A stretch of DNA of 64,000 nt, taken from Candidatus Tumulicola sp. GTDB taxonomy: Bacteria > Vulcanimicrobiota > Vulcanimicrobiia > Eremiobacterales > Eremiobacteraceae. A program made the translations under genes and the position numbers. The stretch covers positions 124,001 through 188,000 of the forward strand of contig DATNNM010000016.1 in the NCBI GenBank assembly GCA_035601835.1, read 5' to 3'. Shown here piece by piece: positions 18,441 to 57,175 of the stretch. Below the pieces are notes generated by a model that had not been told where the DNA came from, made no database searches, and saw only the letters and a list, made by a program, of their open reading frames with translations. Within the stretch, counting starts at the first letter, position 1, and every line of letters begins with the position of its first letter.

Positions 18441-20798
18441 TTGGCTGCATACGCGCTTCTCGCGACGCTGCTCTTGGTGCCCCTTCTCGCGCGTCCGCAT
18501 GCATGCGCTTTCGGCCTGCATGACTGGAGCTTTCCATGCTTTCCCGAACAGGCGCGTCATCTGCTCGCCTATCATCTGTCGCCCTGGATCGAGCGCAACC
18601 TTGGGCAGCCAAGCGCGCTGCCGCATGCCAATCCCCTTGCTGCGCTTCTATACCTGGCGGCTTACTTCGCGCCGGATATGGTGCTGCGCGCCGCGCTATG
18701 GCTGTTTCTTTTCGCGGGTGCGGTGGGGGCGGACATCGCTGCCGCGCGCTTGTTCGGCGCTAGCGCGCCCATGGCGCGGCTTGCCGCGGGCCTACTCTAT
18801 TTGAGCTCACCCTTTTTCGCGACGAAGCTCGCGAGCGGTCATTACTTCTTCTTGCTGGATGCTGCATTGGTGCCGTTCGGGCTTGTGGCGTTCATGGCGA
18901 TTCCGACGCGGGGTTTGCGGGCCTGGTGCGCAGCCGCCCTGTGCGTTTCGCTTGCGTTTGCGCAAGTGCAAGTCGGGCTGATACTGATTGTGCTGCTGCC
19001 GGTGCTGGCGTGGCGACGCATGAGGGCTTGGCATTGGCTCGGCATATGGGTCGTCGCTCTGTTGACGTTCGCGCCTCCGGTCTTCGCTGCGATCTCCGCG
19101 TATCGCGGCGGTGGACTCGCCACCGAGCTTCAACTCGCGACGTGGTTGCGCGACGAGAGCATTCCGTGGAACCGGGTGCTCGACGCCACATATTATTTTG
19201 CGAACTATTTCGGCAGCGCGGCGGGAGACACGAGCGTCATCGCGTGGCAATGGCTAAGCCCAGCCTGTGTGCTTGTCGCTCTTTTCGTGGCAGGAACGTC
19301 GCGCCGCCTTGCACTTGCCGCGATCGTCCTCGGCGCGCTTGCCACCGGCGCCACCGGACCGCTCGCGCCGCTTCTCGTGCGGCTCTTCGCGCATGTCCCC
19401 GCGCTCTCGGTCTTTCGCGAGCTGTATGACCTCCTCGCGCTCGTACCGCTCGTCGTGGCCGGCGGCGCGGCCGTCGCGATTCAGTATCTCGTGTCGGGTC
19501 CGCTTCGAAGACCCGTTCTGCTCGCTTCAATCGCAGGCTTGGCTGCGATTTTCGGGATCGCGATGTGGCCGGCTTTTTCCGCGAAATGCGCGGCGTTAGT
19601 GCCGCTGTCCGATCCGCGCCAGTGGCAGGCCGAGGTGGACACGGCCGCGGCGCTGCCCGGCGACGACCGGATTCTGTGGCTGCCTACGGCAGTACCGCTC
19701 GGTCCGCTCGGCACTCCGGGAGGCGCCGACCCATTCGAGTATGGGACTGGGCGCCATCCGTCCGCTCAGTCCTACCATGCGGCGGGATTGTTCGCGTACG
19801 CCGCAGCGCGGACGGACCATTCCGGCGCTCTGCCGCCGGCGTTTGCGCGCCGCCTCGGCATCGGAATGATCGTTGCGCGCAATCGCGTGGTCAGCCGTCG
19901 TCTCATGGCTGTTGCATGGCCGGCCGGCGGGCTCATCATGCCACCTGCGAGGCCGGCGCAGATCATAGCTAATGCCGGACCGCTCGCTTTTTACGGCACC
20001 CAACCAGCCTGCGAGCCCGACCTGCGATCCGCGATGAAGCCGGACGTCGCATACGTGCGCTGCTCGGGCACCGCGCCGCTCTTCCTGCCCCTTGAGGATC
20101 CGCAAACCTCGCTCGACGCGCCGAACCGCGGTTGGGTGCAAGGCGAACGCTGGGCCGAGCTAGACGCCGCGCTAGCCGGACCGCGCTGGCCGGTGCTGTT
20201 CACGCGTTCACTGGTGCCATATGAATGGATGAGCATGGCTGCGGGCCGTGCGCTGATCTACGCGCCGGGCGGAGCGCGGCTGAATAATACGCCTATCAAA
20301 GCGAGCGCGCAATGGCTTTCGCTGCCGATATCGGCCGGGTATCATACATTGTCCGGCGATGGTGCGCACATCGTCGCGATATCAGCGACCCTGCCGGAGT
20401 CATCCGAGGCCGTTTCCGGGGCTAAAGCCCCGGCACTACAAGCCTCGGCACTACAACCACCCCTTGAAACGGAGGTTCCAGCGGAGCGCAGCGACAGAAC
20501 GTGGGGCCTCTACGAGGCAATACTGCCCGCGCACGCTGCCGGTCTGCTCATTTTGCGCGAGGGCTACTCCGCGAATTGGGGAGCTGCGATCGACGGCCGC
20601 CGCCTGGGGCTGCCCGTGTTCGTTGACGGATACGCGACCGGCTGGATGCTGCCGGCTACGTCGTCCCCATCACATCTTTCTATTGGATACGCTCCGCTCG
20701 CGGTCTATGCAGCGCTCGCGGCCATCGCGCTACTCACGTGGCTCTCGCTCCTCGCCGGCCTTTTTCTCCAAGGGACGCCGAAGCCGACACGGACCTAA
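18441..20798 (+). CDS. Third large GT-C-like membrane protein (785 aa), REP element inside
   Basis: Many hydrophobic segments fill residues 1-390, then an extracytoplasmic region and a last membrane helix (YAALAAIALLTWLSLLAGLF). A membrane-edge motif (LSVFRELYDLLALVPLV) occupies the place of FREP/LRDP in the two larger proteins of this locus, so it is probably a shorter member of the same group. No ATG or GTG is available in frame near the start, and TTG 18441 is used. A REP-like hairpin lies in frame at about codons 659-667, adding the peptide [10 protein letters not shown] second, different hairpin supplies the stop codon (TAA at 20796, which is its TAAA loop). Confidence 0.62.
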   Translation: MAAYALLATLLLVPLLARPHACAFGLHDWSFPCFPEQARHLLAYHLSPWIERNLGQPSALPHANPLAALLYLAAYFAPDMVLRAALWLFLFAGAVGADIAAARLFGASAPMARLAAGLLYLSSPFFATKLASGHYFFLLDAALVPFGLVAFMAIPTRGLRAWCAAALCVSLAFAQVQVGLILIVLLPVLAWRRMRAWHWLGIWVVALLTFAPPVFAAISAYRGGGLATELQLATWLRDESIPWNRVLDATYYFANYFGSAAGDTSVIAWQWLSPACVLVALFVAGTSRRLALAAIVLGALATGATGPLAPLLVRLFAHVPALSVFRELYDLLALVPLVVAGGAAVAIQYLVSGPLRRPVLLASIAGLAAIFGIAMWPAFSAKCAALVPLSDPRQWQAEVDTAAALPGDDRILWLPTAVPLGPLGTPGGADPFEYGTGRHPSAQSYHAAGLFAYAAARTDHSGALPPAFARRLGIGMIVARNRVVSRRLMAVAWPAGGLIMPPARPAQIIANAGPLAFYGTQPACEPDLRSAMKPDVAYVRCSGTAPLFLPLEDPQTSLDAPNRGWVQGERWAELDAALAGPRWPVLFTRSLVPYEWMSMAAGRALIYAPGGARLNNTPIKASAQWLSLPISAGYHTLSGDGAHIVAISATLPESSEAVSGAKAPALQASALQPPLETEVPAERSDRTWGLYEAILPAHAAGLLILREGYSANWGAAIDGRRLGLPVFVDGYATGWMLPATSSPSHLSIGYAPLAVYAALAAIALLTWLSLLAGLFLQGTPKPTRT
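20416..20440 (+). repeat. REP-like hairpin, CCGGGGC stem, inside a coding region
   Basis: Arms CCGGGGC and GCCCCGG enclose the loop TAAA, and the tail is CACTACA. The 25 bases are identical in five other places in the window (27783, 32370, 35280, 53991, 54044; some on the other strand). The bases after it repeat part of the element again (CTCGGCACTACAA at about 20444-20456). It is read through in frame by the GT-C-like gene as SGAKAPALQ. Confidence 0.85.
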
Positions 20799-27113: not shown

Positions 27114-27892
27114 GCGCCTTCCCCGCGGATGACCGCCGGCACCGTCTTGGCCAGGATCCAAAAGTCGACGAGCGGCGACCAGTGCCGCACGTACCAAACG
27201 TCCATCGCCATCCAGCGGCGGAACGAAACGTTCGCGCGCCCGCTCACTTGCCACAGGCCGGTGATGCCGGGCAGCACCGTGAGCCGCTGCAAGTAATGCG
27301 GCTGATAGCTTTGGACCTCTTTGGGCAATCCGGGGCGGGGACCGACAAAACTCATGTCGCCGCGCAGCACGTTCCAGAGCTGCGGCAGTTCGTCAAGACT
27401 GCTGCGGCGCAGAAACCAGCCGACATCGTGCACGCGCGGGTCATTCGAGATCTTCAGCGCGGGGCCGTCGCGTTCGTTCAGGTGCGCGGCGTGATCGTGC
27501 AACAGGTGTGCCCCGTCCACCATCGTGCGGAACTTGTAGAAGCGGAACTCACGCCCGGATCTGCCGACGCGCGTCTGCGAGAACAGGACGGGCCCGCGCG
27601 ACGACAGTTTGATCGCAAGGGCGATCACCGCGAACAGCGGTGAAAGCACGGCGAGCATCGCCACGCTCAACGCGATGTCGGATACGCGCTTGAAGACATG
27701 CCATGCCGCCGGCACACGACGCTCGGCGTTGAGCCAGTGGGCGCTGCGGCTCGCACCGTTGCTGACGTGTCCGTTAACGTTTTGTAGTGCCGGGGCTTTA
27801 GCCCCGGACTGCGCGCTGCTTGCGAGCGCGGCCAGTGCGGACATCTGCTGCGCGCGCTCCGCGTCGCTGCGCGCCAACGGCCCGATGTTCAT
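27107..27892 (-). CDS. Polyprenyl-phosphate sugar-1-phosphate transferase (WcaJ/WbaP type)
   Basis: 261 residues. The bacterial sugar transferase domain occupies residues ~65-261: a membrane-inserted helix ([20 protein letters not shown]), then [20 protein letters not shown], the catalytic [27 protein letters not shown], and [12 protein letters not shown]. It starts lipid-linked glycan synthesis by moving a sugar-1-phosphate onto undecaprenyl phosphate. The N-terminal ~60 residues are poorly conserved and carry a REP-derived peptide (SGAKAPALQ at about residues 29-37). Only the short C-terminal catalytic form is present, with no multi-helix N-terminal domain. It overlaps deoB by 4 bp upstream. 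Confidence 0.9.
27783..27807 (-). repeat. REP-like hairpin, CCGGGGC stem, inside the sugar transferase gene
   Basis: Identical on the minus strand to the copy at 20416: arms CCGGGGC and GCCCCGG, loop TAAA, tail CACTACA. It is translated in frame as SGAKAPALQ in the non-conserved N-terminal part of the sugar transferase. Confidence 0.85.
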
Positions 27893-29485: not shown

Positions 29486-32400
29486 TTGCCCGTGTCCCTC
29501 GGTCCCCTCATCTCAGGCCTCATCGGTGGAACGGAATCCCTAAGTCCTGTTGCTGCCGCGCTGCGCGCGCGTGCGGCGCTTGACATGCGCGAGACCTCCA
29601 GCGGCGCGCGCGCCTGCGTGTTGGCGTCGCTGTGGCGCAATAGCGGCGGACAAGTGATCGTATGGACCGCCACGCCGGATGCCGCAGATCGCGTCGCCAA
29701 TGACGCGGCATTCTATTTGGAAGACGCGCCCGGCGCGGTGAACGTGCTGCGACCGCGCGCGCGCGCCGATGCGTCGCCGAGCCCGACGGAGCGCAGCGAA
29801 CGGATCGAAACGCTTGCGGCGCTTGCGGCAGGGCGGCCGGGCATCTTCTGCGTCTCGCACGCGGCCCTTCGTCAGCGCTTGCCGGCACCCGCGCGTTGGC
29901 GCGATGGCGCGCTGACGCTTCGCACCGGCGGCGTCATGGCGTGGGAGCTGTTGCTCGAGCGGCTCGTGGCGCTGGGCTACGAACGGGTCGAGATGGTCGC
30001 GGCGGCCGGCGAGTTCGCGGTGCGCGGCGGCATCGTCGATTGTTTTCCCGCCACCGCGGATGCACCCATCCGCATGGAATTTTTCGGCGACCAGCTCGAG
30101 TCAGCGCGCACGTTCGCACTTTCCGACCAGCGCTCGATCGCGGCGGTGGATTCGATCGTCATCGAGCCGTGGGACGAAGAGGCGCTTGCGGCCGACGCAG
30201 CTTTCATCGGCGTGTATGCAGACGATGCGATATTTGCGGTGGACGATCCGGAATTGATCCGCGCGGTGGATCAAGGGCTGAACGTTGAGCGCGACGACTC
30301 GACCGTCGCCGCCGCCGACGCCCCCGAAGATGACCCAAATGTAGCGTTCCGAGCGAAGCTCGGAGGTAGCGTTCCGAGCCCCAGCTCGGATTTCTCCCTC
30401 GACGCGATCGCCGAGCGCTTGAAGTCGCACGCCGTGGTCAACTTCGCTTCGTTGGGCGTGCGCGTCACGCGCGAACCTGATCTCACGGTCGCGATCCCCA
30501 CGCAAGCGTCGCCCCTCTTCAATAGAAGCATGGACAGGTTTGTGGAGGACGTGCGAAAGCGCGTCGCCGCGGGCGAGTTGATCGCCGTCGTCTCGGTAGG
30601 CCATCGCCGGATCAAAGAGGTGCTCGACGAGCATGACGTCCCTGTAGGGCCGGTCCCGGCGCACTGGGCCCGAGGTGACGGCGGCCGGGTGGTGGTGGCC
30701 GACGGCGTCATCGACGAAGGTTTCTCTAGCCCCGCTCTCGGGCTCGCCGTGCTCGGCGATGCCGAGCTCTTCGGCCATGCGGCGCGCCGCCAAAAGCAGC
30801 GAGCCGCGAAAGAAGGCGTGCCGATCACCGATGCTGATCTCGTCGCCGGCGAGTATTTCGTCCACGCCCACCACGGCATCGGGCAATATCTCGGCCTGGA
30901 GCACATCGAGGTCGAGGGCGTGGGCCGCGATTTTCTTGCGCTCAAGTACGCCGGCGACGACCGGCTTTATGTGCCGGTCGAGATGATGCACTTGGTGCGC
31001 CGTTATCAAGCCGGCGACGGTGCCGGTCCTCGGCTCTCGAAGATGGGCGGCAGCGATTGGCAGCGCACGCGCTCCCGAGTGCGCGACGCGGTCGAGAAGA
31101 TCGCCGAGGGTTTGGTGCGCTTGTACGCCGAGCGAGAAACGGCGCAAGGCCACGCCTCCGCTCCTGACACGCCGTGGCAGGCGGAGCTCGAGGAATCATT
31201 CCCCTACGATGAAACGCCCGATCAGCATTCGACCGTGCTGTCCGTCAAGGAAGACATGGAGCGGGCTCGTCCGATGGATCGGCTCGTCGCCGGCGATGTG
31301 GGCTACGGTAAGACCGAAGTCGCGATGCGCGCCGCGTTCAAGGCCGTCATGGATCAACGCCAAGTAGCCGTGCTCGTGCCGACCACGGTGCTGGGCGCGC
31401 AGCACTTCCGCACATTTTCCGAGCGCTTCGCCGCGTTCCCGGTGCGCGTGGAGATGCTCTCGCGCTTGCGCTCGCCAAGCGAGCAGAAACAGACCTTGGC
31501 CGGGCTGCTCGACGGCAGCGTCGACATCGTCATCGGCACGCATCGCCTGCTGCAGCGCGACGTCGGCTTCAAGCGCCTCGGCCTCGTCGTCGTAGACGAA
31601 GAGCAGCGCTTCGGCGTCGCGCACAAGGAGAAACTCAAAGAGCTGCGCCGTTCGGTGGATGTGCTCACGCTTTCAGCCACGCCGATCCCGCGTACGCTGC
31701 ACATGTCGATGGTGGGCGTGCGCGATCTGTCGCTCATCCAAACGCCGCCGGCCGACAGGCTCGCGGTCAAGACGGTCGTCGCGCCGACGAGCGACGCGCT
31801 CATCGCGTCCGCGATCCAACAAGAACTCGATCGCGGCGGCCAGGTTTTTTTCGTGCACAACCGGATCGAGACGATCTACGGCGTCCGCGACGCGTTGGCC
31901 AAGCTCGTGCCGCGCGCGCGCATCCGCATCGGCCACGGTCAGATGGAGGCGCGCGAGCTTGAGGACGTGATGATCGCGTTCGTCGAAGGCGAATTCGACG
32001 TGCTCGTCTCCACCACGATCATCGAAAACGGTCTCGATATCCGCAACGCCAACACGATCGTGATCAACAACGCGGACCATTTCGGGCTCGCGCAACTGTA
32101 CCAACTGCGTGGTCGCGTGGGGCGCGGCGCCCACCAAGCCTACGCGTACATGCTGTACCAGCCGCATCGGTCGCTCAGCGAACAGGCAGAGGCGCGCTTG
32201 GAAGCGATCCGCGAGTTCGCGCATCTCGGGTCGGGGTTGCGCCTCGCCATGCGCGATCTCGAGATACGGGGCGCCGGCAATCTGCTCGGCCACGCGCAAA
32301 GCGGCTTCATCGCGCAGGTCGGCTTTGACACCTACACGCAGATCTTGCAAGAAGCGATATCAGAACAATCCGGGGCTAAAGCCCCGGCACTACATCGAGG

Positions 32401-35050: not shown

Positions 35051-35351
35051 AGTCTCGCGCCTCGCGAAGCGGCGCACCGAAGCGAAAGAGGCGCTGGACG
35101 CCCGGCGCATCGAGTGCGGCGACCGGCCGGTGAAGGCGTCGCATCAGGTGAAGGTAGGCGACGAATTGCTCATCCATTACGCATCGCGCGACGTGAGGGT
35201 GCGCATCGAGGCGGTGCCGGAGCGGCCGGGCGCGCGCGTGCGTGCCGAGTCGCTCTATACGCTCTTGTCCGACGTCAAACCGGGGCTAAAGCCCCGGCAC
35301 TACACAACGGACGTCAAAAGCGGCGGTCCCGGCGAAACCCGGAATTCGTGA
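35028..35351 (+). CDS. S4-domain RNA-binding protein (RqcP/YabO/HslR-like), REP in its tail
   Basis: 107 residues. The S4 domain is MRLDKFLKVSRLAKRRTEAK through VGDELLIHYASRDVRVRI (residues 1-~63). It follows mazG with overlap, matching the yabN-yabO order of Firmicutes; there the protein (RqcP) binds 50S subunits with peptidyl-tRNA in ribosome quality control. The normal protein would end near residue 84. From there a REP-like hairpin (35280-35304) is read as PGLKPRHYT, flanked on both sides by the triplet DVK, and the frame runs on to a TGA that overlaps the ATG of the next gene. Confidence 0.82.
   Translation: MRLDKFLKVSRLAKRRTEAKEALDARRIECGDRPVKASHQVKVGDELLIHYASRDVRVRIEAVPERPGARVRAESLYTLLSDVKPGLKPRHYTTDVKSGGPGETRNS
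35280..35304 (+). repeat. REP-like hairpin, CCGGGGC stem, in the S4 gene
   Basis: Same 25 bases as at 20416. It is read in a different frame from the other coding copies (PGLKPRHYT). GACGTCAAA occurs on both sides (35271-35279, and again after the element), which looks like a short duplication at the insertion. Confidence 0.85.
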
Positions 35352-50800: not shown

Positions 50801-50804
<4 letters not shown>

Positions 50805-51295
50805 TGGTGCGCGGACTCGGGCGCGGACGGCGCGGCTGCGACCGGCTCCGCGGGCTGACGGCGTTCATGCCAGAGAATGCGCAGCAGCAGCAGGCAAACG
50901 CCGATTGTGATGGCAGAGTCGGCGACGTTGAACACCGGCCACCAGCGTAAGTCGATGAAGTCGATGACGTAACCGTAGCGCACGCGGTCGATGATGTTGC
51001 CGATCGCCCCGCCGAGGATCATGCCGAAGGCGATATGCACGGAAGCGGTCGCGCCGCCCTGACGGTACCACAGGTAGAACAAGATGACCACGCCGAGCGC
51101 GATCGCCGCCAGCACCAGCGGGTGCCCGCCGAATAGACCAAAAGCGCCGCGGTGGTTCTGCACGTACGTCAGCCACAACCCGTGGGGCACGACGATGCGG
51201 CTCTCGTCCGGCATGAAGTGCGTCGCTACGGCGTGTTTTGCCAGTTGATCGCCGGCGACGACGAGCGCCGCGACCAGGAAGAACACGATGCTCAT
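50801..51295 (-). CDS. lspA: Lipoprotein signal peptidase (signal peptidase II)
   Basis: About 164 residues. Four membrane helices, an early DQLAKH, the catalytic aspartates in GAIGNIIDRVRYGYVIDFID and NVADSAITIGV, and a proline-alanine-rich tail. It cleaves lipid-modified prolipoproteins. The ATG at 51295 overlaps the CcdA-like stop (ATGA); the frame upstream of that is shadow. It lies within 0.8 kb of lgt, the enzyme of the preceding step. Confidence 0.93.
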
Positions 51296-52038
51296 GCCGC
51301 CAGCTCTTCGATGCTCTGACCGGTCAGCAGCGAGATGTAGACGGGCACCAACGGCAGGACGCAGGGTGACAAGAAGGAGACGAGACCGGCGATGAAGACC
51401 GCGCCGAGCGACAGCGATGCGCTTTCCGGCCCCGTGCCCACGTTTGCCAGCGCCGGGAATGTCTGGTACAGCCAGCCCGTGAAGCGCACGAAGGAGTTGG
51501 TCAACAGGACGAGCCCCATACCGATGACGATGATGCCGGCGCCGATCTCGATCGCCGGCAAGAAGCGCTTGATGCGGTGGAACAGGGGCAGCACGTATTG
51601 GAGTGCGATCGCCGTCAGCAAAAACGGAATGCCTAGGCCTATGGAATAGACCAGCAAAAGTCCGGTGCCTGTCGCCACGCTGCCGGATTCGCTCGCTAGA
51701 GCGATCACGGCCGCGAGCACGGGACCGATGCACGGCGACCAGCCTGCGGCGAAGCCGAGTCCCGCAAGCAGTGATCCGACATACGAAACGCCCCGGCGCT
51801 CGAAATGCAGCCGCTTATCCATCGCTAGGAACGGAACTTTGAACAGGCCCACCATGTTGAGGCCCAGAAGGATGACGATGACCCCGAACACACGCGTAAT
51901 GACCGTGCGGTATTCTGCAAAGGCCTGGCCGAGCGCGCTCGCCGACGCCCCCGCGGCGACGAACACGAGCGTGAAGCCGAGGATGAAAACGAGCGAATGA
52001 AAGACGACGTCGCGGCGCGCCACCACGGCCGTGCTCAT
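51292..52038 (-). CDS. CcdA-like disulfide-carrier membrane protein, apparently circularly permuted
   Basis: 248 residues, six membrane helices. In the CcdA family the protein begins with a helix bearing SPCVLPLVP and continues with helices 2-6, of which helix 4 has a second SPC. Here the protein starts directly with the segment normally second (VVFHSLVFILGFTLVFVAAG) and has the helix-4 motif AAGWSPCIGPVLAA (Cys103). The SPCVLPLVPVYISLLTG helix comes at the very end (Cys226), after a ~25-residue linker. The stop overlaps lspA, and the ATG is preceded by a ten-codon frame (52067-52035) whose TGA overlaps it. No SPC-bearing segment lies upstream. The two active cysteines are kept, so it may still carry electrons to periplasmic thiols. 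Confidence 0.8.
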   Translation of the reverse strand: MSTAVVARRDVVFHSLVFILGFTLVFVAAGASASALGQAFAEYRTVITRVFGVIVILLGLNMVGLFKVPFLAMDKRLHFERRGVSYVGSLLAGLGFAAGWSPCIGPVLAAVIALASESGSVATGTGLLLVYSIGLGIPFLLTAIALQYVLPLFHRIKRFLPAIEIGAGIIVIGMGLVLLTNSFVRFTGWLYQTFPALANVGTGPESASLSLGAVFIAGLVSFLSPCVLPLVPVYISLLTGQSIEELAA

Positions 52039-52088
52039 CCGTCCCGCCTTCGTCCGGATCGTCTCATCGTGGGCTCCTGGAGGTATCG

Positions 52089-53984
52089 TTGATCCCAGTT
52101 CCTGCCGTGTTCGCGACCGTTGCCACCCTCGTATCACATTGGTTCGAATATCCGCACATCGATCCGGTGGCCATCCATCTGTTCGGCTCGTTCGGCATCC
52201 GCTGGTACGGGCTGTCGTATGTTATCGGCGCGCTTTTGGTGTACCTCCAACTGCAGAGCCGGCGCAGCCGTGCCCGCACCGGGATCAGCGTCGAGCAGGC
52301 GCAAGAGTTCGTCGTGTACGCGATGCTCGGCGTCATCATCGGCGGACGCATCTTCTTCCTCATCGCCGACCTGCTGACGCCTCTGCCTGCCGGCGGGCAC
52401 ACCATCAACTACTATCTTTCGAATCCGGTCGAGATCATCGCGATTTGGCATGGCGGGATGGCTTTCCATGGCGGGCTCATCGGCGCGATCGCCGGCATCG
52501 TGCTCTTCGCACGCAGGGCGCGCACGCCCATTTTGCCGTTGCTCGATGAGACCTCGTTATGGATCCCTCTCGCAATCGCGCTCACCCGCATCGCGAACTT
52601 CATCAACGCCGAACTGCCCGGTCGGGTCACGGATTCGCCCCTCGGCATGCAGTTCCCCAACATGACCGATTATCGCTATCCCTCGGTTCTCTTCGAGGCC
52701 GCCGGCATGCTCGTGCTGGTCCTGCCGGTGCTCTGGCTGATGCACGCGCGCGGCGACCGCTGGCGCCCGGGCTCGATCTTCTGGGCCTTCATCGCCGGTT
52801 ATGGACTCGTGCGCACCGTCGTAGAGTTTTACCGCGAGCCGGGCATCGTGTTCTTAGGTCTGACCGGCGCTCAATACCTGACGATCGCGATGCTGGTGCT
52901 GGGGATCGTCATGATCGTGCGCTCACAGCGACAGGGAGTCGCCGCTGCGGCGTTCATCCTCGCGTGTTTGACGTCGGCCGGCGCGCTGTTCGGCTGCTCG
53001 TCGTTCACCGGCGTACGGCACACCCTCACGTGCGGCGATAAGATCGACGCGCGAGCATATCAGTCCGCGGTGGATGAATGCACCGCCGCGCTCGCGGCGA
53101 ACCCAAACGATTCGGTCGCGTACAACGATCGCTGTCTCGCCTCGTACGAGCTCGGCCGCCTACCCGATGCGCTCAAGGATTGCAACGCTGCGGTGCGTCT
53201 CGATCCTAGCTTTGCGATGGCGTACTCCAATAGGTGCCTGGTGCTCGACAAACAAGGTGACTTCGCGGGCGCCGTAAGCGATTGCGCCAAAGCGGTCAAA
53301 CTCGATACTGCGCTTGGCGGCGCGCACTCCAACCTCTGCCTCGCGCGCAACGATGCGGGCGACTACGCCGGCGCGATCGACGAGTGCACGGCGGCGCTGA
53401 AGATCAAACCCAACGATGCCAAGGCGTTGAATAACCGATGCCTGGCGCGCGAAAACCTTGGCGCCTATCGCGCTGCTCTCGCCGATTGCACGAGCGCCAT
53501 CGCGATCGACGGCTCTTTGGCAATGGCGTACAGCAACCGCTGCTTGGTGCGGCGCGATCTCAAGGACCTCAAGGGCGCCATCCAGGACTGCACGCGCGCG
53601 ATCGTTTTCGATCCGAACGAGTCAATCGCGCTGAACAACCGCTGCCTCGCGCGCAACGACGCGGGTGACTACCAGGGTGCGATCGCCGACTGCACCCAAG
53701 CCATCAAGATCGCGCCGCGCGAGGCCATCGCGTACAGCAATCGCTGTCTCGCGCTCGGCAATCTCAAACAATATTCGCAGGCGGTCGCCGACTGCACGCA
53801 GGCCGTCACCGTCGATCCCAAAGAAGCCTTCGGCTACTACAACCGCGGCTTCTTCCGCGCTCAGTTGAATCAGCGCGACGCGGCTATCGCCGACTTCAAG
53901 AAGGCGGCGGCGCTATTCCAGGCGCGCCACGATCGAACCGATTATCAGGACGCGCAGAGCCGCATCAAAGAACTGAGTATATAA
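52089..53984 (+). CDS. lgt: Lgt (prolipoprotein diacylglyceryl transferase) fused to a lipoprotein-like TPR domain
   Basis: 631 residues in one frame. Residues 1-~280 are Lgt: FGIRWYGLSYVIGALLVYLQ, HGGMAFHGGLIGAIAG, IANFINAELPGRVTDSPLGM, seven membrane helices. Then, without a stop, comes MIVRSQRQGVAAAAFILACL and SAGALFGC, which looks like a complete lipoprotein signal with its cysteine at 303. Eight 34-residue TPR units follow (342-613). Each of the first seven has Cys at positions 8 and 24 (NxRCLA ... DCT). TTG 52089 is preceded by GGAGG (52079-52083). Lgt adds diacylglycerol to exactly this kind of cysteine. An internal start at ATG 52911 could also make the TPR part alone. Confidence 0.88.
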   Translation: MIPVPAVFATVATLVSHWFEYPHIDPVAIHLFGSFGIRWYGLSYVIGALLVYLQLQSRRSRARTGISVEQAQEFVVYAMLGVIIGGRIFFLIADLLTPLPAGGHTINYYLSNPVEIIAIWHGGMAFHGGLIGAIAGIVLFARRARTPILPLLDETSLWIPLAIALTRIANFINAELPGRVTDSPLGMQFPNMTDYRYPSVLFEAAGMLVLVLPVLWLMHARGDRWRPGSIFWAFIAGYGLVRTVVEFYREPGIVFLGLTGAQYLTIAMLVLGIVMIVRSQRQGVAAAAFILACLTSAGALFGCSSFTGVRHTLTCGDKIDARAYQSAVDECTAALAANPNDSVAYNDRCLASYELGRLPDALKDCNAAVRLDPSFAMAYSNRCLVLDKQGDFAGAVSDCAKAVKLDTALGGAHSNLCLARNDAGDYAGAIDECTAALKIKPNDAKALNNRCLARENLGAYRAALADCTSAIAIDGSLAMAYSNRCLVRRDLKDLKGAIQDCTRAIVFDPNESIALNNRCLARNDAGDYQGAIADCTQAIKIAPREAIAYSNRCLALGNLKQYSQAVADCTQAVTVDPKEAFGYYNRGFFRAQLNQRDAAIADFKKAAALFQARHDRTDYQDAQSRIKELSI

Positions 53985-53990
53985 TACGCT

Positions 53991-54068
53991 TGTAGTGCCG
54001 GGGCTTTAGCCCCGGTTATGCGGCGTCGGGGCTAGGTCCGGATCCGGGGCTAAAGCCCCGGCACTACA
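53991..54068. terminator. Pair of facing REP-like hairpins between convergent genes
   Basis: Two copies of the CCGGGGC-stem element, 53991-54015 on the minus strand and 54044-54068 on the plus strand, point towards each other across 28 bases. They fill the 95 bp between the lgt-TPR stop (53984) and the ileS stop (54080). Each can fold alone, or the two can pair along their whole length into a long cruciform. A role as a transcription end for both genes is plausible; there is no T-run. Confidence 0.6.
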
Positions 54069-54079
54069 TTTAGGTTCGT

Positions 54080-57000
54080 TCATGCCTTGCGGACTGTGAC
54101 CTTGAGCTCGCTTCCGGCGGCGACATCGAGTGTGTTGGCCAGCGTTTGCTCAGCGATGTAACGCCGCCACTGCTCGATCGCCTGCCGGTATTCGTCGTCG
54201 CACTCCACGCGCAAGCTGATGCGATCGGTGACCTGCAAACCCGCTTGCTTGCGCGCATCCTGCACGGCGCGCACCACCTCGCGCGCCAGACCTTCAAGCG
54301 TCAGCGCGCGATCGATGCGCACGTCGAGCGCGACCAACATGCCGTCGTTCTCCGCCGAGGTGAAGCCGGCAGCGGATTTGCTGTCGACCAGCACGTCTTC
54401 CGGTTCGAGCGTGAAAGACTCGCCGTTGGCCGAAACCTCGAACGACCGGCCTTCAGCCACGGCCGTGGCGACCGCGCGCGGGTCGGTCGACGAAAGCGCC
54501 GCGCGCAGCGCGCCGAGTCTCTTCCCAAATCGAGGGCCGAGGCGCGGCAGGTTCGGCCGGGCGGAATACTCGATGAACTTCGCGTCGAGTCCGACGACCT
54601 GAACGTCTTTGACGTTCAACTCGGCCAGCACGAGTTGACGAAAGCGCTCCAGCGCCTTCGCGTCCGCGGGGCGGCGCGGGCGCACGTACGCAAGCGGCAG
54701 CGGCTGGCGCGTGCGGATCTTCGCGGCGGCGCGAGCTCGCCGGCCTAAGTCGACCGATTCCTGCGCGACGCGCATCGCGGCGACCAAGTCCGCATCGCCC
54801 GCTCGGGCCTCCGGCCATGTCTCTAGATGCACGCTCTCTCGCGCGTGAGGATCGACAGAACGCACGAGCGTTTGATGTAGCGACTCGGCAAGAAAAGGCG
54901 TGAACGGCGCGAGCAGCAGCGCTACGCCTACCAAGCACTCGTAGAGCGTGCGATACGCAGAACGCTTGTCCGCGGAAAGGGTCGCGCCCCAGAAGCGGTC
55001 GCGCGAGAGGCGCACGTACCAATTGGATAGTTCGTCCACGAACGCTTCGATGGCGCGCCCGGCGTTTTGTGCGTCATACAGTTCGAGCCGGCGCGTGACC
55101 TCGGCGGTAAGTTCTTGCAGGCGCGCCACCGCCCAACGATCCATGTCCGGCCGGCTCGCCAACGCGACGTCTTCCGGATGCGCGACTCCGTCGGCATTGG
55201 CGTAGAGCACGAAGAACTTGAGCGTGTTCCACAACGTGTTGAACAACGTGCGCGCGCCGTCGCGCACGAATTCCTCCGACACGCGCTTCGCGACTCCCGG
55301 CGGACTCGAGGTGAAGAAATACCAACGCAGCGCGTCCGCACCAAGCGCGTCGAAGATCTCCCAAGGGTCGAGCACGTTGCCCTTGCTCTTGCTCATCTTC
55401 TCGCCTTTGGCATCCACGACGTGCCCGAGGCAGATCACGTTCTTATACGCCGGCGAATCGAAGAGCATCGTGGCGATCGCGTGGAGGCTGTAGAACCAGC
55501 CGCGCGTCTGGTCGACAGCCTCAGTGATGAAATCCGCCGGAAAGCTCTCCTTGAAGGTGGCTTCGTTCTCAAACGGATAGTGCCACTGAGCGTATGGCAT
55601 GGAACCCGAGTCGAACCAGGCGTCGATGACCTCGGGCACGCGCCGGTACTCGCGCCCTTCGTGCACGAACGTGATGTCGTCGATCGCCGGGCGGTGCAGA
55701 TCCAGCCCCGAGAGATCGCGACCGCAGCGTTTGGAAAGCTCTTCGAGCGAGCCGATGCACACGAAGTCGGAGCCGTCGGTCCACAGCGGCAGCGGCGTCC
55801 CCCAAAAACGCTCGCGCGACAGCGCCCAATCGACGTTGTGCTCCAGCCAATCGCCGAAGCGGCCGTGCTTGATGGTCTCGGGCACCCAGTTGATCTTCTC
55901 GTTGTTGGCGAGCAGTTGGCGCTTGAACTCGGTCGTTCGGATGAACCACGCGGTCTTGGCGATGTACAGCAGCGGGTCGTCTGTGCGCCAGCCGAACGGA
56001 TAGGTGTGGCGGATGGTGCCGCTGCGAAAGAGCAGCCCGCGCTTCTTGAGATCCGCGATGATGGGCGGGTCGGCGTCTTTGAAGAAAAGCCCGGCGGCGA
56101 CTTTCACCTCCGGGACCACGTGCCCGGTGAAATCCACGCTATAGAAGATAGGTAGATCGTGGGCCTTGCCCAAGGCGAGGTCCTCCGCACCGTAGGCGGG
56201 CGCGATGTGCACGATGCCGGTGCCGTCCTCCGTCGAGACGTACGGCGCGGCGATCACGTAATAGCGATCCTGGTCGCTCTCGCAATAATCGTACAGCGGC
56301 TGGTAGTGCGTTCCCGTCAAGGCCTTGCCGCGCACGCGCTTGACGACGCGCGGTTCCTCGCCTTGGAACACCGCGCCGAGCAGCGGCGCCGCGACGATCA
56401 GCGTCTCCTCGCCGTGCGCGACGTGGCAATACTCCACCTCGGGATGCACGGCCAGGGCCATATTGGCGGGCAAGGTCCACGGCGTCGTCGTCCAAGCGAG
56501 GAACGAGGTCTTCGGATCGTCGCGCAAACGGAATCGCACGAAGACCGACGGATCGTCCACCTCTCGATAGCCCTGCGCCACCTCGTGATCCGAAAGCGTC
56601 GCGCCGATGCGCGGATCGTACGGCACCGTCTTGTAGTCTTGCTGGATGAGGTGGCGATCCCACAACTGCTTGAGCAGCCACCAGACGCTTTCGATGTAGT
56701 CGTTGGTGAGGGTGAAGTACGCATCGTCCAGGTCGAGCCAGTAGCCCATGCGCTCGGTCATCTGGTTCCAGTCCGCCACGTAGCGATAGACGCTTTCGCG
56801 GCAGCGGCGCGTGAACTCCGCGATGCCGACCTCGGCTACCAGCCGGCTCTTGTCGAGGATGCCGATCTCTTTTTCGACTTGATGCTCGACCGGCAACCCG
56901 TGCGTATCCCATCCGGCCTTGCGCCGGACGAAGTAGCCGCGCATCGTCCAAAAGCGCGGATACAGATCCTTGAACGAACGAGCCAACACGTGGTGCACGC

Positions 57001-57175
57001 CGGGCTTGCCGTTCGCGGTGGGCGGTCCTTCGTAAAACGTGAAGCGCGGGCCGTCTTTCGTCTGCTCGAGCGTGCGCTCGAAGATCTTTTGTGCGCGCCA
57101 GAACTCCAGGACTTCAAGCTCGCGCTTCGCAGCTTCCGGCTGATCCGGCACCTGGGGGAACCCCCGTCCGCTCAT
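54080..57175 (-). CDS. ileS: Isoleucyl-tRNA synthetase, type 2, with altered HIGH motif
   Basis: 1031 residues. The catalytic start reads PPTANGKPGVHHVLARSFKD, where relatives have PTANG.P followed by HVGH; here the signature is GVHH (residues 59-62), with the first histidine and the glycine exchanged. The KMSKS loop is intact (GEKMSKSKGNVLDPWEIFDA). The editing domain and the C-terminal anticodon region are present. The overall form is the eukaryote-like IleRS2, which is naturally less sensitive to mupirocin. It charges tRNA-Ile. It ends just before the REP pair and starts in a 4-bp overlap with the M50 protease gene. Confidence 0.95.
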   Translation of the reverse strand: MSGRGFPQVPDQPEAAKRELEVLEFWRAQKIFERTLEQTKDGPRFTFYEGPPTANGKPGVHHVLARSFKDLYPRFWTMRGYFVRRKAGWDTHGLPVEHQVEKEIGILDKSRLVAEVGIAEFTRRCRESVYRYVADWNQMTERMGYWLDLDDAYFTLTNDYIESVWWLLKQLWDRHLIQQDYKTVPYDPRIGATLSDHEVAQGYREVDDPSVFVRFRLRDDPKTSFLAWTTTPWTLPANMALAVHPEVEYCHVAHGEETLIVAAPLLGAVFQGEEPRVVKRVRGKALTGTHYQPLYDYCESDQDRYYVIAAPYVSTEDGTGIVHIAPAYGAEDLALGKAHDLPIFYSVDFTGHVVPEVKVAAGLFFKDADPPIIADLKKRGLLFRSGTIRHTYPFGWRTDDPLLYIAKTAWFIRTTEFKRQLLANNEKINWVPETIKHGRFGDWLEHNVDWALSRERFWGTPLPLWTDGSDFVCIGSLEELSKRCGRDLSGLDLHRPAIDDITFVHEGREYRRVPEVIDAWFDSGSMPYAQWHYPFENEATFKESFPADFITEAVDQTRGWFYSLHAIATMLFDSPAYKNVICLGHVVDAKGEKMSKSKGNVLDPWEIFDALGADALRWYFFTSSPPGVAKRVSEEFVRDGARTLFNTLWNTLKFFVLYANADGVAHPEDVALASRPDMDRWAVARLQELTAEVTRRLELYDAQNAGRAIEAFVDELSNWYVRLSRDRFWGATLSADKRSAYRTLYECLVGVALLLAPFTPFLAESLHQTLVRSVDPHARESVHLETWPEARAGDADLVAAMRVAQESVDLGRRARAAAKIRTRQPLPLAYVRPRRPADAKALERFRQLVLAELNVKDVQVVGLDAKFIEYSARPNLPRLGPRFGKRLGALRAALSSTDPRAVATAVAEGRSFEVSANGESFTLEPEDVLVDSKSAAGFTSAENDGMLVALDVRIDRALTLEGLAREVVRAVQDARKQAGLQVTDRISLRVECDDEYRQAIEQWRRYIAEQTLANTLDVAAGSELKVTVRKA

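Follow-up and report, generated by a model that had tools for sequence, protein, structure and literature searches.

A single reading frame joins prolipoprotein diacylglyceryl transferase to a lipoprotein-like signal segment and a cysteine-paired TPR array in Candidatus Tumulicola sp.

Background

Prolipoprotein diacylglyceryl transferase (Lgt) occurs almost universally, and most Gram-negative bacteria cannot live without it; the way in which the enzyme encounters its substrates is unsettled. Here we describe an lgt gene of the uncultured bacterium Candidatus Tumulicola sp. (phylum Eremiobacterota; GCA_035601835.1, contig DATNNM010000016.1) whose reading frame continues beyond the enzyme into a signal-like segment with a lipobox and an array of tetratricopeptide repeats (TPR). 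The gene lies in a stretch of 64,000 nucleotides, bases 124001-188000 of contig 16, which we call the window; the genome, a metagenome-assembled genome (MAG), comprises 18 contigs and 2.57 Mb at 97.9% completeness and 0.13% contamination.

In E. coli, Lgt is built of seven transmembrane (TM) helices. Its catalytic cavity is open towards the periplasm, and the side that faces the cytoplasm carries positive charge (PMC4728403). Six residues of the enzyme (Y26, H103, R143, N146, G154 and R239) are reported to be absolutely required (PMC13251419), and the enzyme is inactive when G142 or G145 is changed (PMC4728403); the Lgt of B. thetaiotaomicron carries Ile at position 142 (PMC13251419). The Lgt of Mycobacterium tuberculosis is extended at its C terminus by a long stretch that has no known homologues (PMC13251419). 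In the exported Sel1-like repeat proteins HcpB and HcpC, disulfides link consecutive repeats, tying the last part of each to the first part of its successor (PMC3851747).

Results

Positions 52089-53984 of the window, on the forward strand, form a single open frame of 631 amino acids running from TTG to TAA with no internal stops (665 residues when measured from stop to stop). Ahead of the TTG at 52089 stands TGGAGGTATCG, which reads as a good ribosome site. The original prediction that the Lgt frame runs without a stop into TPR is thereby confirmed, and Pfam likewise recognises LGT followed by TPR families. The extension amounts to 349 residues beyond the usual Lgt end. GC content at third codon positions is 0.82 in the Lgt part and 0.79 in the TPR part, and neighbouring genes have similar values. 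The product consists of Lgt (residues 1-282), closed by RSQRQ, then a hydrophobic segment of 20 residues whose last three, LFG, precede Cys303, and TPR from about residue 308 to 612. Its features are the following.

52089-52934, forward strand: lgt enzyme part, residues 1-282, seven-TM prolipoprotein diacylglyceryl transferase (PF01790, TIGR00544 and 5azb matches)
52911-52913, forward strand: ATG proposed as an internal start, equivalent to Met275 of Lgt TM7 (alignment; conserved in 12 of 12 family relatives)
52920-52934, forward strand: basic turn RSQRQ, residues 278-282, predicted to be cytoplasmic and to serve as n-region of the next segment (sequence; Lgt conservation ends here)
52935-52994, forward strand: hydrophobic segment GVAAAAFILACLTSAGALFG, residues 283-302, putative TM8 or signal h-region (hydropathy)
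52995-52997, forward strand: Cys303, cysteine of the L-F-G-C lipobox, putative site of lipidation and of LspA cleavage in front of it (sequence)
53010-53924, forward strand: TPR solenoid of nine TPR-like repeats, residues about 308-612, with Cys at positions 8 and 24 of repeats one to eight (Pfam TPR_1, cysteine list, repeat table, AlphaFold)
53982-53984, forward strand: TAA stop of the fused gene (sequence)

The Lgt part is predicted to be an ordinary prolipoprotein diacylglyceryl transferase, which would take its diacylglyceryl group from phosphatidylglycerol. PF01790 matches residues 26-277 with 186.8 bits (cut-off 24.9), TIGR00544 reaches 158.7 bits (cut-off 118.9) and the E. coli structure 5azb aligns with residues 15-281 (1.5e-31). 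In an alignment with 5azb and the relatives, the six residues required in E. coli correspond, in the order given above, to Y40, H127, R167, N170, G178 and R242, and E. coli Y235 and R246 correspond to Y238 and R249. The fused gene is the only Lgt match in its genome; a sole Lgt with its essential residues kept should therefore be functional if lipoproteins are made. At the places of E. coli G142 and G145 the fused enzyme has T166 and A169. All 12 family relatives have Thr at the former position, and Ala, Thr or Val at the latter; both glycines vary across bacteria and hence are not strictly defining for Lgt. Because the family relatives are also changed at both positions and B. thetaiotaomicron at 142, T166 and A169 appear to be a lineage trait and not a sign of decay of the fused gene.

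Behind TM7 the parts of a lipoprotein signal are complete, with a basic n-region, 20 uncharged residues, Leu at -3, Gly at -1, the Cys and then Ser-Ser. The basic stretch, hydrophobic stretch and lipobox cysteine that had been claimed are thus all in place (R278-S-Q-R-Q282; mean Kyte-Doolittle hydropathy of 2.03 over residues 283-301; C303). Given seven TM helices and a positive cytoplasmic side, TM7 should end inside and the next helix should run outward; residues 283-302 would then cross the membrane and Cys303 would emerge in the periplasm. This topology is compatible with the proposed lipoprotein-signal-like segment and extracytoplasmic TPR array behind a complete Lgt, which our results support. 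Type II signals are N-terminal; here residues 278-303 follow a seven-TM enzyme and would be N-terminal only with initiation at 52911 or 52917. Since the n-region is supplied by Lgt, the signal would work only within the fusion or from ATG 52911 or GTG 52917. An intact lipobox next to the Lgt active site makes lipidation plausible, and we consider Cys303 to be probably lipidated and cleavage before it by LspA to be possible.

The repeat array is well recognised by TPR_1 (5.1e-43; 143.6 bits, cut-off 27.8), and TPR families match from about residue 319 onward, whereas the family profiles of NlpI, PilW and Tgl score far under their cut-offs. TPR matches are present in the PDB, and the top Foldseek matches are TPR solenoids, with OGT and designed CTPR first. 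AlphaFold (four sequences) places helices at TM7 (260-281) and in the TPR array, the latter with a pLDDT (predicted local distance difference test) of about 80-95.

A strict cysteine pattern in the array had been overlooked in the original prediction. Residues 1-282 have no cysteine and residues 283-631 have 18: Cys293 inside the hydrophobic helix, Cys303 in the lipobox and 16 which all belong to TPR pairs (315/331, 349/365, 383/399, 417/433, 451/467, 485/501, 519/535 and 553/569), with spacing alternating between 16 and 18. The paired cysteines occupy TPR positions 8 and 24 of eight consecutive repeats; in the ninth repeat Gly and Phe stand in their place. In TPR packing both positions lie near the contact of helix A with helix B. 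Among 168 repeats of other TPR proteins, taken from TPR loci of relatives, two paralogues in the same genome and two Nostoc plasmid TPR loci, 27 have both cysteines, 141 have neither and none has a single one, as an intra-repeat disulfide predicts (Fisher p 8e-32, a nominal value that overstates independence, the repeats being mutually related). This pairing points to a disulfide staple and to an extracytoplasmic site. The genome also encodes a VKOR-type oxidase, which together with the cysteine pairs and the ccdA-like gene described below suggests, independently of the signal evidence, that the TPR domain resides in an oxidising, extracytoplasmic place. We found no intra-repeat disulfides in TPR in the literature searched.

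In the same count, cysteines at positions 8 and 24 occur only as pairs in TPR proteins of Eremiobacterota (L032, L036-L046, L049, L050, L066), many of which have export signals. From these sequences, a Cys8/Cys24 staple is a possible general rule for periplasmic TPR.

The genes around the fusion are those that surround lgt in its relatives:

50801-51295, reverse strand: lspA, lipoprotein signal peptidase (SPase II), start approximate (PF01252, 6.4e-35; also a neighbour in L051 and L063)
51292-52137, reverse strand: ccdA-like DsbD_TM protein, divergent from lgt, start uncertain (PF02683, 1.7e-19; same place in L051, L063 and L068)
54080-57175, reverse strand: ileS, convergent (tRNA-synt_1, 9.6e-119; direct lgt neighbour in several relatives, L051 and L068 among them)

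In relatives the order is lspA-ccdA-lgt-ileS without TPR (in L051 the gap between lgt and ileS is about 80 bases), and both flanks are present around the fused gene, which implies that the space between lgt and ileS took up a module of about 1 kb. Lgt of 12 genomes of the same family is alike to the end of TM7 (..LGxVMxWRxQR) and then has an individual polar tail of about 10-25 residues before its stop. The fused gene lacks such a tail, its RSQRQ being joined directly to GVAAAAFILACLTSAGALFGC. The Eremiobacterota Lgt 3' ends that we read, long frames included, stop 5-40 residues beyond the Lgt match. We read this as a probable genuine gene fusion, in which this lineage acquired an exported TPR module in the space that separates lgt from ileS. 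Loss of a stop between two formerly adjacent genes, for which a comparison of fused and separate genes had been proposed as a check, is not borne out: relatives have no TPR gene in frame after lgt, and in several ileS follows directly.

No other Lgt frame of this length is listed among the 149 genomes of the phylum. The long Lgt frames of G052, G045, G053, G130 and G137 proved to be upstream read-through only, and none continues for more than 40 residues past its Lgt match. Outside Eremiobacterota, fusions were sampled via plasmids and one peptide-pattern scan of genome contigs. Viral contigs gave no match, and no plasmid match covered 80% of the query; matches across the junction on pAKD34 and a Nostoc plasmid are separate ordinary genes. 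A match to residues 22-338 in L052 (Nitrospirae) belongs to an Lgt that ends at 297 residues.

Two further observations concern lgt within the phylum. An unrelated-looking TPR gene lies downstream of lgt on the opposite strand in L013. Two genomes that are more than 90% complete (G027, G058) have no Lgt match and one of 99% completeness (G015) has a marginal one (9.2e-4), which may reflect assembly gaps or real loss.

The gap between the fused gene and ileS holds a repeat:

53998-54061, no strand assigned: inverted pair of a genome-wide palindromic repeat (repeat search)

The palindrome GGGGCTAAAGCCCCGG occurs at six places in the window (20416-20433, 27790-27807, 32370-32387, 35280-35297, 53998-54015 and 54044-54061), where 0.04 are expected. 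Its 17-mer GGGGCTAAAGCCCCGGC has 199 exact copies in the genome and the reversed control none. Repeat orientation is polarised per contig, nearly all minus on C8 and nearly all plus on C9 and C10, which could relate to replication direction. L004, L006, L008 and L009 have different palindromic or repeated elements of their own just downstream of lgt, and repeats of this kind seem to turn over fast by lineage.

Discussion

Our proposal, to which we give about even chances, builds on the continuous frame, the intact Lgt residues, the hydrophobic segment with its lipobox cysteine, the TPR fold, the cysteine pairing and the absence of the fusion from relatives. TM7 would end in the cytoplasm at RSQRQ, which would double as the basic n-region of a lipoprotein-type signal. 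An eighth helix (residues 283-302) would carry the TPR domain to the periplasm, where eight repeats would each be closed by a Cys8-Cys24 disulfide, and would present LFG-Cys303 at the periplasmic face of the membrane beside the active site. Cys303 would probably receive its diacylglyceryl group from the Lgt of its own chain or from an adjacent Lgt molecule. LspA, whose gene is the second one along, may then cleave in front of Cys303, giving a free TPR lipoprotein and an Lgt that keeps the extra helix. Lnt, which the genome also encodes, could together with LspA complete the TPR lipoprotein. Tentatively, the fusion might be a self-substrate polyprotein: Lgt would lipidate its own Cys303, LspA would release a TPR lipoprotein stapled by disulfides, and the amount of this lipoprotein, or the state of Lgt, would be tied one to one to the lipoprotein-modifying capacity.

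Several points weigh against this proposal. The fusion is known from one MAG, in which an assembly error is conceivable, and no second species with it was seen among the 149 Eremiobacterota or in the peptide-pattern scan of genome contigs. AlphaFold is uncertain at residues 282-319 (pLDDT below 50), and we know of no example of LspA cutting a signal behind a polytopic domain. The Phe at -2 of the lipobox, which had been called unusual, is indeed atypical, though VFAC occurs at a comparable position in L040, an exported TPR protein from the same family, and the PROSITE lipoprotein profile permits Phe there. This Phe would fit better with a permanent tether, in which residues 283-302 are a plain eighth TM anchor and the TPR array an arm in the periplasm that docks or holds nascent lipoproteins or partner proteins. 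The continuous frame and the good hydrophobic helix agree with a tether, TPR arrays are usually protein-binding scaffolds, and the turn of about five residues between TM7 and the segment would leave LspA little room. However, a plain anchor would need no cysteine right where the h-region ends, preceded by Gly at -1 and Leu at -3, and LspA and Lgt are both present; we regard the tether as the main alternative, less likely than our proposal. One frame might also give two products, Lgt-TPR and a free TPR lipoprotein started at ATG 52911 or GTG 52917. Translation from the ATG would yield a textbook lipoprotein precursor (MIVRSQRQ, then GVAAAAFILACLTSAGALFG and the Cys), and a few bases before it stands GGGG, with a GGG codon that occurs in no other of the 13 genomes compared. 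Yet GGGG is a weak ribosome site, and the Met codon is kept in all 12 relatives without TPR, which argues that the ATG neither arose nor was selected as a TPR start. Of the internal start suggested by the original prediction, the ATG itself is present and a start there possible, but the sequence says little in favour of a codon that is a conserved Met of TM7, and two products strike us as improbable.

A sequence or assembly error, with lgt truly ending at the junction and the TPR gene being separate or a pseudogene, would suit the single MAG and the GGG run at the junction, a typical site of indels. Frame +1 there reads ESPLRRSSSRV up to a stop at 52969, faintly resembling the relatives' tails (RTSASGRV), but we rejected it as a relic of an ancestral polar tail, since codon shuffles equal the resemblance in 9% (mean score) to 22% (best score) of cases. 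Frame 0 is open across the junction. Between the frame +1 stops at 52912 and 52969 there is no ATG, GTG or TTG, and in frame +2 start codons are missing from 52860 to 52963. With an indel at the junction, or a frame-0 stop after 52917, the TPR part would thus lack a nearby start codon before its signal, and an error explains the sequence poorly. Furthermore, the hydrophobic segment and lipobox share their frame with both Lgt and TPR. When 24 tails of relatives are frame-shifted, their best hydropathy is 1.47 and mostly below 0.3, compared to 2.03 in the fusion, which indicates that the segment is not a frameshift product. An error thus seems quite unlikely to us, and the fusion, judged from one assembled genome, is probably real.

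An Lgt that bears a lipobox on the helix following it would offer structural and kinetic work a natural, ready-made pair of enzyme and substrate. It would also be a test of whether a signal placed behind a polytopic protein is accepted by Lgt and LspA. The Cys8/Cys24 rule, in turn, suggests a simple stabilisation of exported TPR proteins.

The component families are known, but we found no Lgt fused to TPR in the literature searched, nor the combination in plasmids or relatives. With standard Lgt (PF01790, TIGR00544; 5AZB/5AZC) the fusion shares the whole seven-TM enzyme, the HGGL motif, the equivalents of R143, N146, G154 and R239 and the single copy; it differs in running 349 residues further and in having Thr and Ala at the positions of E. 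coli G142 and G145, both of which are changed throughout its family. M. tuberculosis Lgt likewise bears a large C-terminal addition (PMC13251419), whereas here the addition is a signal-like helix and an exported-type TPR array. Exported TPR proteins and lipoproteins (NlpI and PilW/Tgl types, and the paralogues G000 C16:63277 and C18:94288) also have a TPR array behind a signal, and many Eremiobacterota relatives have the Cys 8/24 pair in one to three repeats; in the fusion, by contrast, the signal is internal to Lgt and the first eight repeats are all paired. Helicobacter HcpB and HcpC are likewise exported alpha/alpha repeat solenoids with stabilising disulfides, but the cysteine pair of the fusion would join helix A to helix B within one TPR.
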